Source of the DNA: an uncultured Pelagibacteraceae bacterium
GTDB lineage: Bacteria; Pseudomonadota; Alphaproteobacteria; Pelagibacterales; Pelagibacteraceae
Assembly: GCA_902587295.1 (NCBI GenBank)
Contig: CACIKS010000005.1
Location: 1-51,881 of the forward strand
Length of the DNA: 51,881 bases
Direction of reading: 5' to 3'
The notes under the pieces were generated by a model. It made no database searches, was not told where the DNA came from, and saw only the letters and a list, made by a program, of their open reading frames with translations. How positions within the stretch are numbered: position 1 is the stretch's first letter; every line of letters starts with the position of its first letter. This document shows positions 21,813 through 29,119 of this stretch, in pieces. The position numbers and the translations under genes are program-made.

Positions 21813-22646
21813 ATGATAGTCGCACTAAGTATATTTTTAATTACAGTTGGATCAATAGCATTTCATTTTTGGTCTCCTTGGTGGTGGACGGAAGTAGCAT
21901 CAAACTGGGGAAATATGGATGATACAATAATTTTAACTTTTTGGATTACAGGTTTTGTTTTTGTAGCCATATGTTTTTTTGTTGCCTATTGTGTTTGGAA
22001 ATTTAGTTATAATAAAGATAGAAGAGCAGAATATAAACCAGAAGACAAAAAATTAGAAAGCAGATTAACCTGGGCAACAGCTATCGGGGTTGCAGCTTTA
22101 TTAGCACCTGGACTAGTTGTGTGGAACCAATATGTAACCGTGCCTGAGAACGCCTACAAAGTCGAAGTTTTTGCATATCAGTGGGGTTGGAAATATAGAC
22201 TTCCAGGTGATGACGGTATTCTTGGAAAAACAGATATTAAATATATAACCGATGAAAATCCATTCGGACTAATTATTGAAGACACAAACGGTAAGGATGA
22301 CCTTTTAGTTGACGCACAAGAACTTCATCTTTTGATTGATCGTCCGGTAAAATTTGAATTAAGAACCATCGATGTTTTACACAATTTTTATGTACCCCAA
22401 TTTAGAGGAAAGATGGATATGGTTCCGGGTATCGTAACATACTATTGGCTCACGCCGACAAGAACGGGTGATTTTGAGGTTTTGTGTGCGGAGTATTGTG
22501 GGTCGGGGCATTACGCTATGAGAGGTAGAGTAATAGTAGATGAAGAACAAGATTATAAAAAATGGGAAGCAAAACAAATAACTTTCGAAAAAATGTTAGC
22601 AAAAAATCAAAAAAAACGACAATTTGCAACTAGTAAAAAAGGATAA
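21813..22646 (+). CDS. coxB: Cytochrome c oxidase subunit II
   Basis: Accepts electrons from cytochrome c at its binuclear CuA site and passes them to subunit I. The 277-residue protein has an N-terminal hydrophobic stretch and two further helices (about 40-63 and 88-106), then a periplasmic cupredoxin domain. The aromatic YQWGWKY lies near 122-128. The CuA ligands are all present: His in VLHNFY and CxxxCxxxHxxM in CAEYCGSGHYAM near 222-233. This separates it from quinol oxidases, which lack CuA. No heme c domain is fused. It follows the small membrane gene by one base and precedes coxA by 25 nt. Confidence 0.96.
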   Translation: MIVALSIFLITVGSIAFHFWSPWWWTEVASNWGNMDDTIILTFWITGFVFVAICFFVAYCVWKFSYNKDRRAEYKPEDKKLESRLTWATAIGVAALLAPGLVVWNQYVTVPENAYKVEVFAYQWGWKYRLPGDDGILGKTDIKYITDENPFGLIIEDTNGKDDLLVDAQELHLLIDRPVKFELRTIDVLHNFYVPQFRGKMDMVPGIVTYYWLTPTRTGDFEVLCAEYCGSGHYAMRGRVIVDEEQDYKKWEAKQITFEKMLAKNQKKRQFATSKKG

Positions 22647-22671: not shown

Positions 22672-24501
22672 ATGTCAGATGAATACGAACATAAATTAGA
22701 AGCAAAATCAGACTACGCTACCGATGCGTCTTCAGTCCCTTCAACTGATATAGACTCAGTTCCAAAGGCAGAACTTCCAGATCAGGAGCTCTATCACTCT
22801 CATAGTTGGTGGACAACATATGTTTTTTCACAAGACGCAAAATATATTGGTATTCAGTATGCTCTAACAGCTGTAGGAACAGGTCTCTTAGGATTAGTTT
22901 TATCTTGGTTAATGAGAATTCAATTAGCTTTTCCTGGTTTAGGGTGGTTAGACCCAGCAGCATATTACCAGTTTGTGACAATGCACGGAATGATAATGGT
23001 TGTTTATCTACTAACCGCATTATTCTTAGGAGGTTTTGGAAATTTATTGATCCCTTTAATGTGTGGCGCCAGGGATATGGCTTTCCCATACGTAAATATG
23101 CTTAGTTATTGGGCATTCGTTGTTGCTGTTGTGGTTTTATTAGCAAGTTTTTTTGTTCCAGGAGGTCCCACAGGAGCTGGATGGACCCTCTATCCACCAC
23201 AAGCTATTACTGCAGGAACACCCGGAAGTGATATGGGTATAATTTTAATGTTAATTTCATTAATACTTTTTGTTGCTGGTTTCACAATGGGAGGACTAAA
23301 TTATATTATTACAGTTTTACAATTAAGAGCTCGAGGTATGACACTTATGAGATTACCTCTTACAATTTGGGGAATATTTACAGCAACTGTTCTTGCGATG
23401 TTTGCTTTTCCAGCTTTACTAGTAGGTTGTTTGATGATGACACTAGATAGTTTGCTCGGAACAAGTTTTTTTATGCCCGCGATGGTTTCTTTAGGTGAGA
23501 CATTAACTCACGAGGGAGGAAGCCCAATTTTATTTCAACATTTATTTTGGTTTTTTGGTCATCCGGAAGTTTATATAGTAGCTCTACCTGCATTTGGTAT
23601 AGTGTCTGACTTACTTTCAGTGCATTCTAGAAAAACAATTTTTGGATATAGAATGATGGTATGGGCAATAGTTGGAATTGGTGCTTTGAGCTTTTTTGTT
23701 TGGGCACACCATATGTATGTAAGTGGTATGAACCCTTGGTTTGGCTTCTTTTTTGCAACAACAACATTAATTATTGCAGTTCCTACAGCCATAAAGGTTT
23801 ATAACTGGATTTTAACTCTTTGGAGAGGAAACATACAACTTTCGTTACCGATGTTATTTTCTTTGGGTTTTATTGTTACTTTTTTAAATGGAGGACTTAC
23901 AGGATTATTCTTAGGCAATGTAACTGTTGATGTTCCTTTATCTGATACTTATTTTGTAGTTGCACATTTTCATATGGTTATGGGTATCGCACCTATACTT
24001 GTGATTTTTGGTGCAATTTATCATTGGTACCCTTTAATAACTGGAAGAATGATGAACGAGACACTCGGAAAAATCCATTTTTGGATCACATTCATAGGAT
24101 CATATGCAATTTATTTTCCAATGCATTACCAAGGCTTTGTTGGTGTCCCGAGAAGATATTTTGAAATCTATGATAGTCCATATATCGATACTTCTACACT
24201 TCTTTTAAATAAGTTTATAACAATTGCAGTTCTAATTGTCGGTGCAGCACAATTATTATTTTTATACAACTTAATTACTAGTGCTCGGTTAGGAAAAAAA
24301 TCAGAAAAGAATCCTTGGAAAGCAAATTCGCTGGAATGGCAAACACCTCAGATGCCACCTGAACATGGTAACTGGGGCAAAGAACTTCCTAAAGTTTATA
24401 GATGGCCTTACGATTTTAGCGTTCCTGGAGCTAAAGAAGATTATATTCCACAAAACCAACCTCCAAGTGAGATAATAGGAGCGAAAGTTGAGAAAACGTG
24501 A
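22672..24501 (+). CDS. coxA: Cytochrome c oxidase subunit I (heme-copper catalytic subunit)
   Basis: Reduces oxygen to water and pumps protons. The 609-residue protein has a polar N-terminal extension of about 50 residues and then 12 helices. Visible ligands and channels include the heme a His in FVTMHGMIMV, HPEVY with the D-channel Glu and the cross-linked Tyr, the two CuB His in WAHHMY, the K-channel Lys in AVPTAIK, and the heme a3/heme a His in VAHFHMVMG. The HPEVY Glu places it in the A1 type of heme-copper oxidase. Its GTGA end overlaps the start of the next gene. Confidence 0.98.
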   Translation: MSDEYEHKLEAKSDYATDASSVPSTDIDSVPKAELPDQELYHSHSWWTTYVFSQDAKYIGIQYALTAVGTGLLGLVLSWLMRIQLAFPGLGWLDPAAYYQFVTMHGMIMVVYLLTALFLGGFGNLLIPLMCGARDMAFPYVNMLSYWAFVVAVVVLLASFFVPGGPTGAGWTLYPPQAITAGTPGSDMGIILMLISLILFVAGFTMGGLNYIITVLQLRARGMTLMRLPLTIWGIFTATVLAMFAFPALLVGCLMMTLDSLLGTSFFMPAMVSLGETLTHEGGSPILFQHLFWFFGHPEVYIVALPAFGIVSDLLSVHSRKTIFGYRMMVWAIVGIGALSFFVWAHHMYVSGMNPWFGFFFATTTLIIAVPTAIKVYNWILTLWRGNIQLSLPMLFSLGFIVTFLNGGLTGLFLGNVTVDVPLSDTYFVVAHFHMVMGIAPILVIFGAIYHWYPLITGRMMNETLGKIHFWITFIGSYAIYFPMHYQGFVGVPRRYFEIYDSPYIDTSTLLLNKFITIAVLIVGAAQLLFLYNLITSARLGKKSEKNPWKANSLEWQTPQMPPEHGNWGKELPKVYRWPYDFSVPGAKEDYIPQNQPPSEIIGAKVEKT

Positions 24502-25130
24502 CCAAAAAAAAAAGCATTTTTCAATTACTAACTGAAAAGCCCTGGGAAAAAGATCAAATACAGGCAGACAATGAGCACCAAGGTCAAACAGTCAATTTAA
24601 GCAAACAGAAGTTAGGTTTAAGAACATTAATGGCTGCCAGCACGGTTCTCTTCTCACTTTTTATAGTAGCATATTCTGATCGTATGCTTATCAGCGATTG
24701 GAAAAATATGCCTGAACCATGGTTGTTGTGGCTAAATACAGTTATTTTAGTAATAAGCAGCATTGTTTTCCATATGACTACGAAATATGCTGAAAACGAT
24801 GTTTTTGATAAAACAAAAAATGGTTTATATTTTGTTGGTTTCCTTGCTTATTCTTTTCTAATTGGTCAACTTATAGTTTGGTATCAACTTATGAATACTG
24901 GATACTATGCTACCACTAATGTCGCTAACGCTTTCTTTTATTTATTTACAACAATTCATGGTCTTCACATAGTTGGAGGTATTTATTTTTGGGGCAAAAC
25001 TACTTCCAAATTTATTAAAAGGTCTCATAAAAAAGAAGAAATAAATAATTTAATTGATACTTGTGCTGTATATTGGCACTTTTTATTAGCTGTATGGATT
25101 GTTCTTTTTGGATTAATGTTATCAAGTTAA
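24498..25130 (+). CDS. Cytochrome c oxidase subunit III-like protein, first copy
   Basis: A 210-residue COX3-family protein with five helices, from the GTG at 24498 that overlaps the coxA stop (GTGA). Recognisable parts are the last-helix pattern YLFTTIHGLHIVGGIYF and CAVYWHFLLAVWIVLF. It diverges strongly from the second copy that follows 15 nt later. Bradyrhizobium coxMNOP, as I recall it, likewise has two subunit III genes after subunits II and I, so the arrangement matches that alternative oxidase type. Confidence 0.85.
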   Translation: MTKKKSIFQLLTEKPWEKDQIQADNEHQGQTVNLSKQKLGLRTLMAASTVLFSLFIVAYSDRMLISDWKNMPEPWLLWLNTVILVISSIVFHMTTKYAENDVFDKTKNGLYFVGFLAYSFLIGQLIVWYQLMNTGYYATTNVANAFFYLFTTIHGLHIVGGIYFWGKTTSKFIKRSHKKEEINNLIDTCAVYWHFLLAVWIVLFGLMLSS

Positions 25131-25145
25131 GGAATTAAAAAAAAT

Positions 25146-25850
25146 ATGTCCGACTCGTCATTTGAAAATCTTCCTAAGGGCTGGAAAAGCGTTCCTAGCG
25201 ATTTAGGGTCAGATCAAACAGCATTTAAAGGTGTTCAATGGGGTAAGGCAATGATGTGGATTTTCCTATTGAGTGATACATTTATTTTTAGTTGTTTTTT
25301 AATTTCCTATATGAAGGGCAGAGCATCAACCGTGGTTGATTGGCCGAACACAAGTGAGGTTTTCTCACTTGATTTTATGGGAGTACCTGTTCCATTACTT
25401 TTAATTGCAATAATGACTTTTGTGCTTATTACAAGTAGCGGAACTATGGCCTTAGCTGTGAAGTATGGGTATGAAAAAAATAAAAAAATGTGCGGTTGGT
25501 TTATTTTTGCAACAGCGATTGGCGGATTAACATTTGTAGGGATGCAAGCTTACGAGTGGTCGAAATTAATACATGAAGGAGTGAGACCTTGGTCAAACCC
25601 TTTTGGTGCGGGTCAATTTGGTTCATATTTTTTTATGATAACAGGTTTCCACGGAACACACGTATCTATAGGTGTAATATTTCTATTCATATTTGCCAGA
25701 AAAGTATTTAGGGGAGATTTTGATACTGGAAGGCGAGGTTTTTTCACCACAATGAAGTCTGACTACGTTTCTATCGAAATATTAGGGCTTTATTGGCACT
25801 TTGTGGATTTAGTTTGGGTTTTTATTTTTGCTTTCTTTTATCTCTGGTAA
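25146..25850 (+). CDS. Cytochrome c oxidase subunit III, second copy
   Basis: A 234-residue COX3 protein with about five helices. Family marks include KAMMWIFLLSDTFIFSCFL, FVGMQAYEWSKLI, SYFFMITGFHGTHVSIG near 161-177 and LGLYWHFVDLVWVFIF near the end. Subunit III stabilises subunit I and shapes proton uptake. It looks closer to canonical subunit III than the preceding copy. The gap to the subunit IV gene is 9 nt. Confidence 0.92.
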   Translation: MSDSSFENLPKGWKSVPSDLGSDQTAFKGVQWGKAMMWIFLLSDTFIFSCFLISYMKGRASTVVDWPNTSEVFSLDFMGVPVPLLLIAIMTFVLITSSGTMALAVKYGYEKNKKMCGWFIFATAIGGLTFVGMQAYEWSKLIHEGVRPWSNPFGAGQFGSYFFMITGFHGTHVSIGVIFLFIFARKVFRGDFDTGRRGFFTTMKSDYVSIEILGLYWHFVDLVWVFIFAFFYLW

Positions 25851-25859
25851 GATAATAAT

Positions 25860-26210
25860 ATGAACGAAAAAACTGAATTAGATAAAGATAAACAAAAATC
25901 ATCAACTACACATAAGATAGGTATTTATCTGTGGATTTGGGGACTATTATTTGTTTTGAGTTTTTTTTCCTATATGGTTGACTGGTACCAGTTTCAAGGT
26001 TTGCTTCGATGGTCACTGATTTTATTTTTTATGTTTTTGAAAGCAGGTTTAATTATGGCTTTCTTTATGCATCTTTTTTGGGAACGTTATGCTTTAGTTA
26101 ATATTTTACTATGGCCTATGACAGCAATAGCTTGTTTTGTAGGCTTAATGGTTGCAGAAGGAAAGTATACTGTTTTTACAAGACTAGTTTATTTTGTTCT
26201 AGGAGAATAA
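25860..26210 (+). CDS. Cytochrome c oxidase subunit IV family protein
   Basis: A 116-residue protein with three hydrophobic helices and the conserved IMAFFMHLFWER segment of bacterial subunit IV (CyoD/COX4_pro group) near 65-76. The N-terminus is polar and lysine-rich. It is the last structural gene of the oxidase and sits 18 nt before heme O synthase. Confidence 0.88.
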   Translation: MNEKTELDKDKQKSSTTHKIGIYLWIWGLLFVLSFFSYMVDWYQFQGLLRWSLILFFMFLKAGLIMAFFMHLFWERYALVNILLWPMTAIACFVGLMVAEGKYTVFTRLVYFVLGE

Positions 26211-26228: not shown

Positions 26229-27143
26229 TTGTTAAATACTCACACAAAAACTAGAGAATTTAAGTTTGACTTAGCTCATTATGTGAGGGCTTTATTTGAA
26301 TTAATGAAACCAAGAGTAATGTCTCTTGCTATTTTTACTTGTATAGTTGGTTTTCTAATTGCTCCCTATAAAAGTGTTGATTACTGGTATGCGATATTAT
26401 CTATCGCTGCAGTTGCTCTAGGCTCTGGGGCCGCAGGATCTTTGAATTGCTGGTACGAAGCTGATGTGGATAAGCTTATGTCTAGAACCTGTCTAAGACC
26501 AATCCCAACAGGAAAGTTGACCAAAAAAGAAGCTCTTATATTTGGAGTAATATCCTCCTTCGTTTCAGTGGGAGCTTTATTTCTTTTCTCAAATATAATG
26601 GCAGCTTCTTTGCTCGCCTTAACAATTCTATTTTATGTTTTTGTTTACACTATTTGGCTTAAAAGAAAGACACCTCAAAATATTGTTATTGGAGGGGCCT
26701 CAGGCGCTTTACCACCAGTGATAGGATGGTCAATAGCAACAGGGGGTGTATCAATTGAACCTATTATCTTATTTCTAATTATTTTTATGTGGACACCCTC
26801 ACATTTTTGGGCCTTAAGCCTATTCAAGTCTGAAGACTATAAAAAAGCAAAAATTCCAATGTTACCAGTCACATCAGGTGTAGAGGCAACTAAAAAAAAT
26901 ATTCTATTATATTCAATATTACTTTTTCCAGTAGCAGTTGCTCCATATTATTTAGAATTTTTAGGCATTATATATTTACTTTTTTCATTTCCTTTAAGCT
27001 CATATTATATTTTTATATCCTTGAAACTTTATAGATCAAAAGATTCTAAAGAAGAGAAAAGTTTATCAAAACAATTATTTGCCTTTTCAATTCTTTATCT
27101 TTTCGCAATTTTCATATCAATACTAGTGGATAAATTTGCTTAA
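26229..27143 (+). CDS. ctaB: Heme O synthase (protoheme IX farnesyltransferase)
   Basis: Adds a farnesyl group to heme b, giving heme O for the oxidase. The 304-residue UbiA-family protein has about eight helices, the first Asp motif NCWYEADVDKLMSRTCLRPIP near 73-93 and the second region KSEDYKKAKIPMLPV near 198-212. The start is a TTG at 26229 with an AGGA-type site just upstream. The next ATG is too far inside. It overlaps the next gene by 8 nt. Confidence 0.95.
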   Translation: MLNTHTKTREFKFDLAHYVRALFELMKPRVMSLAIFTCIVGFLIAPYKSVDYWYAILSIAAVALGSGAAGSLNCWYEADVDKLMSRTCLRPIPTGKLTKKEALIFGVISSFVSVGALFLFSNIMAASLLALTILFYVFVYTIWLKRKTPQNIVIGGASGALPPVIGWSIATGGVSIEPIILFLIIFMWTPSHFWALSLFKSEDYKKAKIPMLPVTSGVEATKKNILLYSILLFPVAVAPYYLEFLGIIYLLFSFPLSSYYIFISLKLYRSKDSKEEKSLSKQLFAFSILYLFAIFISILVDKFA

Positions 27144-27570
27144 AAATAAAAAATTAATTTTTATAATAAGTTTTCTATTTTTAATTATTTTAACTTCAAT
27201 TTTCTTTTACGGAAATAAAGAGAATAATCATCAGGGAATTTCAACTAAATTAATAACAAGTGTTCATAAAGATTTACCTCTTGAATTTAAATCAGATAAA
27301 AATCTTATCATTTTAAAACCTGGGGAAGTAAAAACTATAAATTACTATGTAAAAAATTTAAGCGAAAAAAACATATCAGCAACCGCAACTTTTCAGGTTT
27401 ATCCGTCCGAATTAAAAGATTATATAACTAAAATGAACTGTTTTTGTTATGAGAAACAAACTTTAAAAGCAGGTGAAAAAGAAAAATACGCGCTAGTTTT
27501 ATTAGTTGACCCTAAAGTGACAAAGAATATAAAACAAGCTATAATTCAATTTATATTTTTTAAAAAATAA
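27136..27570 (+). CDS. ctaG: CtaG/Cox11 copper-delivery protein for cytochrome oxidase
   Basis: Delivers copper to the CuB site of subunit I. The 144-residue protein has one N-terminal membrane anchor (about 6-25) and a periplasmic Ig-like domain. It contains LPLEFKSDKN, the NLSEKNISATATFQVYP block and the signature MNCFCYEKQTLKAGE near 95-109 with the CxC copper site. Translation starts at a TTG inside the last codons of ctaB. The stop TAA shares its last A with the start of a 57-residue ORF, so the three are tightly coupled. Confidence 0.93.
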   Translation: MLKNKKLIFIISFLFLIILTSIFFYGNKENNHQGISTKLITSVHKDLPLEFKSDKNLIILKPGEVKTINYYVKNLSEKNISATATFQVYPSELKDYITKMNCFCYEKQTLKAGEKEKYALVLLVDPKVTKNIKQAIIQFIFFKK

Positions 27571-27743
27571 TGATTATAAATATATCAAATTCTGAATTTC
27601 AAAGATTGTGTGCAGTTTGTATATCTGAAACTTCAGGTGGCCAAAATGCTTTACTTATTATCGTTCTTTCACTTACTCTTTTGGGATTGTTAAACTCTTC
27701 TTGGAAAAAATATTTTAAAAAAGAACAAAAATCATCTAGCTAG
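27570..27743 (+). CDS. Small single-span membrane protein with a CxxC motif, in the oxidase operon
   Basis: A 57-residue ORF whose ATG overlaps the ctaG stop (TAATG) and whose TAG overlaps the GTG start of thrC (TAGTG). It reads MIINISNSEFQRLCAVCISE, then a polar SGGQN turn, a hydrophobic helix (about 27-43) and a basic tail KKYFKKEQKSSS. The positive tail should stay in the cytoplasm, which puts the CAVC pair (Cys14, Cys17) in the periplasm. Position and motif suggest a small assembly factor or copper/thiol protein. The family is not known to me. Confidence 0.6.
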   Translation: MIINISNSEFQRLCAVCISETSGGQNALLIIVLSLTLLGLLNSSWKKYFKKEQKSSS

Positions 27744-29119
27744 TGGAATATATCAGCACAAGGAATAAAAATCTAAAATACAACTTTAAAGATATTTTTT
27801 TAAGAGGGCTAGCTCCTGACGGGGGACTTTTTATTCCCAAACAAATAAAAAAATATAATGAAGATGAAATTAAAAAATTGAGTGTCTTGAATTATACTGA
27901 CCTTGCAACAGAAATAATATTTAATTTTTGCTCGTCAAGTTTAGAAAAAAATAAACTTAAAAATCTTATTAAAAAATCATACAAAAACTTTTCAACAGAA
28001 GAAGTTATTAAACTTAAAAAGTTTGGAAGTTTAAATTTAATAGAACTTTATCATGGACCTACATTAGCATTTAAGGATATTGCGATGCAAGTTCTTGGAA
28101 ATATGTATGAAGAATTTAATATTTCCTCAAACAACAAAGTAAATATTATAGTGGCTACATCTGGCGATACTGGTTCAGCAGCTATAGCTGCATTAAATGA
28201 TAGAAAAAATATAAATGTATTTGTTTTGCATCCCTATAAAAAAATTTCAAATATACAAAGAAAAATAATGACAACTATTGGGTCCAATAATGTTTACAAC
28301 ATTGCAATCAAAGGAACATTTGATGATTGTCAAAAACTTGTAAAAGAAATGTTTTCTGAAAATTCCTTTAGAGAAAAAATTAATATGTCGGGTGTAAATT
28401 CTATAAATTGGGCGAGAATAATTTGTCAGATAGTTTATTATTTTTATTCTTACTTTAAATTTCAAAATAAAAAAGTTAGTTTTGCAGTTCCAACTGGTAA
28501 TTTTGGTGATGTTTTTGCAGGATATGTAGCTAAAAAAATGGGATTACCAATTGAAAAATTAATAGTAGCAACTAATGAAAATGATATTTTAGAAAGAGTT
28601 ATTAATACTGGTGAATATAAACCAACTAAAGTAAAACCATCGTTATCACCAAGTATGGATGTTCAAATATCAAGTAATTTTGAAAGATTACTTTTTGATG
28701 TACTTAATGAAGATGATAAACAAGTATCAATTTTTATGAATGATTTGAAATCCAAAGGTTTATTTTTGTTAAACAAAGAACAGATAGCTAGCATAAAAAA
28801 AGATTTCAATGCTAAAAAAGTAAATGACAAAGAAACTATTGAAATAATCAAAAAATTTTCTAAAGAATACAATTTTGTTATAGACCCACACACAGCAACT
28901 GCAGTTGGTGCCTCCAAAGATATAAAAGATGGTTCTGAAATTTTAATTTTGGGCACGGCTCATCCTTATAAATTTTTAGAAACAATTAAAATGGCAACTT
29001 CACAGGAGGTTGAGATCCCAAAACAGATAGCACATTTGATGAATAAAAAAGAAAATTATGATATTTTGGAAAACAACATAAATGATGTAAAAAATTATAT
29101 ATTGGGCAAAATATTATGA
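27743..29119 (+). CDS. thrC: Threonine synthase
   Basis: Converts O-phosphohomoserine to threonine with pyridoxal phosphate. The 458-residue protein opens with MEYISTRNKN from a GTG at 27743. The PLP lysine is in GPTLAFKDIAMQ near 109-121. ATSGDTGSAAIAAL near 138-151 and AVPTGNFGDVFAGYVAKKMG near 247-266 bind the phosphate. This is the long threonine synthase type with an N-terminal extension. Homoserine kinase (thrB) is nearby on the other strand, giving the last two steps of threonine synthesis. Expression is probably coupled to the oxidase genes. Confidence 0.97.
   Translation: MEYISTRNKNLKYNFKDIFLRGLAPDGGLFIPKQIKKYNEDEIKKLSVLNYTDLATEIIFNFCSSSLEKNKLKNLIKKSYKNFSTEEVIKLKKFGSLNLIELYHGPTLAFKDIAMQVLGNMYEEFNISSNNKVNIIVATSGDTGSAAIAALNDRKNINVFVLHPYKKISNIQRKIMTTIGSNNVYNIAIKGTFDDCQKLVKEMFSENSFREKINMSGVNSINWARIICQIVYYFYSYFKFQNKKVSFAVPTGNFGDVFAGYVAKKMGLPIEKLIVATNENDILERVINTGEYKPTKVKPSLSPSMDVQISSNFERLLFDVLNEDDKQVSIFMNDLKSKGLFLLNKEQIASIKKDFNAKKVNDKETIEIIKKFSKEYNFVIDPHTATAVGASKDIKDGSEILILGTAHPYKFLETIKMATSQEVEIPKQIAHLMNKKENYDILENNINDVKNYILGKIL

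Follow-up and report, generated by a model that had tools for sequence, protein, structure and literature searches.

The 51,881-nucleotide stretch of DNA analysed here (the window) is a contig from a SAR11 genome of 0.85 Mb and carries on its forward strand an oxidase operon with the gene order coxB–coxA–cox3–cox3–cox4–ctaB–ctaG–ORF57–thrC. From sequence, coxB (21813..22646) encodes oxidase subunit II with the CuA motif CAEYCGSGHYAM, and coxA (22672..24501), identified by sequence and by its relatives, encodes subunit I of an a-III (CoxMNOP-type) oxidase, sharing ~66–75% identity with a-III loci from rhizobia and elsewhere. These are followed by two COX3 homologues, cox3a (24498..25130), the marker of the a-III operon, and cox3b (25146..25850), then by cox4 (25860..26210; PF03626), the haem O synthase gene ctaB (26229..27143; TIGR01473) and a Cox11-type ctaG (27136..27570; PF04442, E 2.6e-27). 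Operon subtype a-III is defined by its COX3 doublet (PMC6431628), and the window operon belongs to it, with both cox3a and cox3b matching PF00510 after coxB–coxA. A published survey records this oxidase subtype from Pelagibacterales of oxygen minimum zones or their vicinity (PMC8879329). Beyond ORF57 the operon runs on into thrC (27743..29119, threonine synthase by profile match), a neighbour outside the oxidase system, and a redoxin gene.

ORF57 (27570..27743, + strand) encodes a 57-residue single-pass membrane protein, MIINISNSEFQRLCAVCISETSGGQNALLIIVLSLTLLGLLNSSWKKYFKKEQKSSS, and sequence, relatives and a codon model all bear on its assignment. Its ATG has one base in common with the TAA of ctaG and its TAG one base in common with the GTG of thrC at 27743, so the base-exact fit between the two genes that the original prediction described was confirmed, as were the coordinates. 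The other features it had named were also found, namely a CAVC pair (C14 and C17; residues 14–17, codons at 27609..27620), one membrane helix after a spacing of 9 residues (residues 27–45, 27648..27704) and a basic tail, KKYFKKEQK. The helix was identified by hydropathy and charge count, and a single-sequence AlphaFold2 model (pTM 0.43) contains only two helices, at residues 7–20 and 24–55. Positive charge behind the helix is present in every member by charge count, and by the positive-inside rule the protein is predicted to lie N-out, with a periplasmic CxxC just above the membrane and KKYFKKEQK in the cytoplasm. No significant match to ORF57 was obtained in Pfam, NCBIfam or PDB sequences. 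It falls outside the Cox11/CtaG family, as neither ORF57 nor any of 19 aligned members matches the PF04442 profile, outside the Sco family (no PF02630 match, only 57 residues, no conserved His) and outside the PCuAC family (no PF04314 match, no conserved Met/His motif).

Homologues were sought in 100 relatives, 30 of them from the same genus; those with names, AAA288-N07 and AAA288-G21 among them, are uncultured Pelagibacteraceae, many being single cells. ORF57 was found in 25 of the 30 same-genus genomes (63–82% identity), in 12 further Pelagibacteraceae genomes (36–57%) and in the complete genome G204, and the carriers together cover 10 genera of Pelagibacteraceae (SAR11). The five same-genus genomes with no strong match (G011, G013, G014, G022 and G027) are not counter-examples because in four of them the oxidase marker cox3a is missing as well, and the contig of the remaining one, G013, stops 12 bases past its cox3b match. 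The motif C-x-[VM]-C is kept in all 49 distinct ORF57 proteins. Residues C14, C17, G23, A27, L38, N42 and K47 are invariant in a 19-row alignment, and the members share both Cys but no conserved His. In a codon model fitted to 25 sequences from the same genus, omega was 0.068 for the whole ORF, 0.030 for residues 14–49 and 0.176 for residues 1–13, rough values given only 55 codons; omega = 1 was rejected in each case (2dlnL of 457, 443 and 41, respectively). Rough as these estimates are, their distance from omega = 1 is very large, and ORF57 is under strong purifying selection. The original prediction had proposed retention of the frame, retention of the Cys pair in close relatives and a dN/dS well below 1 as checks on the gene, and all three were borne out. 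ORF57 is thus a real, previously unnamed gene.

In one single-cell genome (G009, L018 1501–1674) ORF57 is intact but for an in-frame TAA following CAVCI, which is either a sequencing error or a true nonsense mutation. The SAR11 ctaG and ORF57 also occur on a contig labelled Woeseia sp. (L086, CAJWFK010000014.1), which is probably mislabelled or mis-binned SAR11. Weak matches in the sister family f2 (E 0.05–0.2) were set aside as noise, no fetched f2 locus having the oxidase synteny, and so were weak class-wide matches (best 5e-4), the best of which does not include the Cys region.

With presence of the a-III oxidase scored by the cox3a marker, ORF57 was found in every SAR11 genome having this oxidase except G013, where the contig ends, and in none of the SAR11 genomes searched that have the canonical oxidase only. 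G204 (a complete genome) and G055 (a draft) have both oxidases, and in these genomes the a-III operon begins with ORF57, immediately ahead of coxB (ATGA overlap of the ORF57 stop with coxB in G204; 9 nt gap in G055). The a-III operon is reversed in both; in G204 it is flanked by the canonical coxA on one side and the canonical ctaB on the other, and in G055 it adjoins the canonical ctaB. The G204 locus (L155, 21–12541) is a reversed a-III operon set within a canonical coxB–coxA / ctaB–ctaG–cox3–SURF1–thrC operon, and the non-SAR11 genome G350 (L188) has an operon arrangement resembling this nested one. The association with the oxidase is therefore independent of gene order: ORF57 occupies two positions, always with a-III, which ties the gene to this oxidase and not to thrC, from which it lies apart in G055 and G204; an association with thrC is thereby ruled out. 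ORF57 is specific to the a-III oxidase and the linkage is strict. The original prediction had proposed an oxidase assembly factor beside ctaG, and this interpretation is supported in part. Its link to the oxidase has come out stronger than that prediction could know, but the proximity to ctaG did not hold up as an informative fact, given the position upstream of coxB in G055 and G204 and the presence of ORF57 in G056, where there is no ctaG.

G056 is probably a mixed bin, as suggested by its two thrC loci. One of its contigs (G056:C5, L201 576–11569) carries two tandem a-III oxidase operons, and a third a-III operon, with Sco, is found on another (G056:C15, L168). Outside SAR11, ORF57 was not seen beside any of 25 a-III operons, and the a-III oxidase can therefore be built without it. 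In G204 and G055 the sequence GGGGAGG stands ahead of ATG-TGC at the ORF57 start, and the protein probably begins Met-Cys-Ala-Val-Cys in these genomes. Such a start would reduce the core of ORF57 to CxxC, helix and basic tail, and residues 1–13 of the window protein would be a lineage-specific, less constrained addition.

The CtaG protein itself is altered in ORF57 carriers. Canonical SAR11 and ten other proteobacterial genomes that were read have a CtaG with PLYxxFCxxTGxGG and CFCF. In every a-III-only SAR11 carrier with a readable ctaG, PLYxxFCxxTGxGG is lost and the CFC pair kept, the window CtaG lacking this motif and its third Cys and retaining CFCY. In Cox11 the third Cys lies directly above the membrane and shares in the handover of copper to subunit I (PMC9232578). 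The CtaG proteins with two Cys fall into one clade, and so represent a single evolutionary event whose correlation with ORF57 counts once. Relaxed selection could explain the change, though the intact CFC pair argues for continued copper binding. Cox11-type CtaG is absent from seven non-SAR11 a-III-only genomes (G361, G383, G435, G507, G602, G678 and G703), whose oxidase must therefore obtain CuB another way; no Caa3-type CtaG was recognised among the multi-helix ORFs listed at 11 a-III loci, which were read without a profile search. Together with G056, these seven genomes indicate that the a-III oxidase is not strictly CtaG-dependent, and they weaken the idea of a strict partnership between ORF57 and CtaG.

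Profile searches found neither Sco (PF02630) nor PCuAC (PF04314) in 15 of 15 ORF57 carriers, G056 being set aside as the only carrier with both. SURF1 and canonical Cox3 are likewise absent from the carriers, except for G055 and G204. SAR11 genomes with the canonical oxidase are mostly without Sco too, so that the loss of Sco by itself did not require ORF57.

On balance, these features make it somewhat probable that ORF57 is a small copper/thiol assembly factor dedicated to the SAR11 a-III (CoxMNOP-type, double-COX3) oxidase; a copper or thiol role of some kind is likely, as we infer from the sequence. In the membrane the protein would have a periplasmic N-terminus and a cytoplasmic lysine-rich end, holding the CxxC just over the outer membrane face, near where the copper sites of the apo-oxidase face. 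Its thiols may act in the loading of CuB and/or CuA, either through Cu(I) binding or by holding cysteines in the reduced state, and its partner would be a CtaG without the membrane-proximal transfer cysteine in cells without Sco and PCuAC. In SAR11, where Sco has mostly been lost, part of the copper/thiol work of the a-III oxidase may have passed to a new CxxC microprotein.

Several known systems resemble ORF57 in part. The membrane-proximal Cys segment of Cox11/CtaG (PF04442) likewise has its cysteine next to a single helix and close over the outer face of the membrane, its gene is adjacent, and the function of Cox11 is copper loading of subunit I; ORF57 differs in being a separate protein of opposite orientation, with the motif before the helix, a CxxC in place of a single Cys, no beta domain and no sequence similarity. 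Sco and PCuAC are periplasmic copper/thiol factors for oxidases, and Sco, like ORF57, combines a Cys pair with one membrane anchor, but ORF57 has no thioredoxin or cupredoxin fold and no conserved His or Met, and its motif is CxxC, not CxxxC. In mitochondria the small cysteine proteins Cox19, PET191 and COA6 tune Cox11 and Sco in their redox or copper state (PMC9232578); these are soluble twin-CX9C proteins, unlike the bitopic ORF57 with its one CxxC. Single-helix microproteins also occur in oxidase operons, among them aa3 subunit IV and a CoxF-like small ORF in the ctaB–ctaG gap of canonical SAR11 operons. The latter has no Cys, carries its charges at the opposite end and is unrelated in sequence, and a relocated CoxF is accordingly ruled out as the origin of ORF57.

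A narrower form of the assembly-factor reading, overlapping with it in probability, has ORF57 standing in for Sco/PCuAC at CuA and not acting as a CuB factor; it would reduce the two CuA cysteines of CoxB or bring Cu(I) to them. The coupling to coxB in G204 and G055, the lack of Sco and PCuAC in carriers, and the Sco gene near three marine operons among the 25 non-SAR11 a-III operons and near the ORF57-less a-III locus of G056 all favour it. It is nevertheless improbable, since Pelagibacter-like SAR11 have a canonical CuA oxidase without Sco, PCuAC or ORF57, and in most carriers ORF57 adjoins ctaG, far from coxB. The two Cys of ORF57 are predicted to lie at a height similar to that of the lost CtaG Cys, with the opposite chain direction, which suggests a division of labour between the proteins. 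We tentatively offer, as a possibility we consider rather unlikely, that this amounts to a split Cox11: the two-Cys CtaG head would bind Cu(I) and the CxxC microprotein would pass it on, giving the membrane-proximal thiol of CtaG in trans and, in SAR11 lineages reliant on a-III, taking the place of Sco as well as of the third cysteine of Cox11.

ORF57 might also belong to the a-III oxidase itself as a small structural subunit, comparable to the single-helix aa3 subunit IV, its Cys pair forming a structural disulfide or contact. It does have a single helix, translational coupling to oxidase genes and a strongly conserved helix and tail, and its weak PDB profile matches include aa3 subunit IV (E about 2). 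These matches are not significant, however, and invariance is confined largely to the Cys pair together with a small number of Gly, Ala, Leu, Asn and Lys residues, in contrast to the Cys-free aa3 subunit IV; outside SAR11 the same oxidase occurs without ORF57, making a structural role doubtful. The charges of subunit IV lie at the end opposite to those of ORF57, and the two are unrelated in sequence. That ORF57 is a general thiol or copper-stress membrane protein and a bystander in the operon is very unlikely: small CxxC membrane proteins can have many redox roles and the operon does continue into thrC and the redoxin gene, but ORF57 is absent from the searched SAR11 genomes that have no a-III oxidase, and it has followed this oxidase to its second location.

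SAR11 cells rank among Earth's most abundant, and the assembly-factor reading makes ORF57 a genus-spanning candidate, with two invariant cysteines, for the loading of copper into their oxidase without Sco and PCuAC. The CtaG of the carriers, for its part, represents a natural experiment on the third cysteine of Cox11, which is poorly understood in copper transfer.
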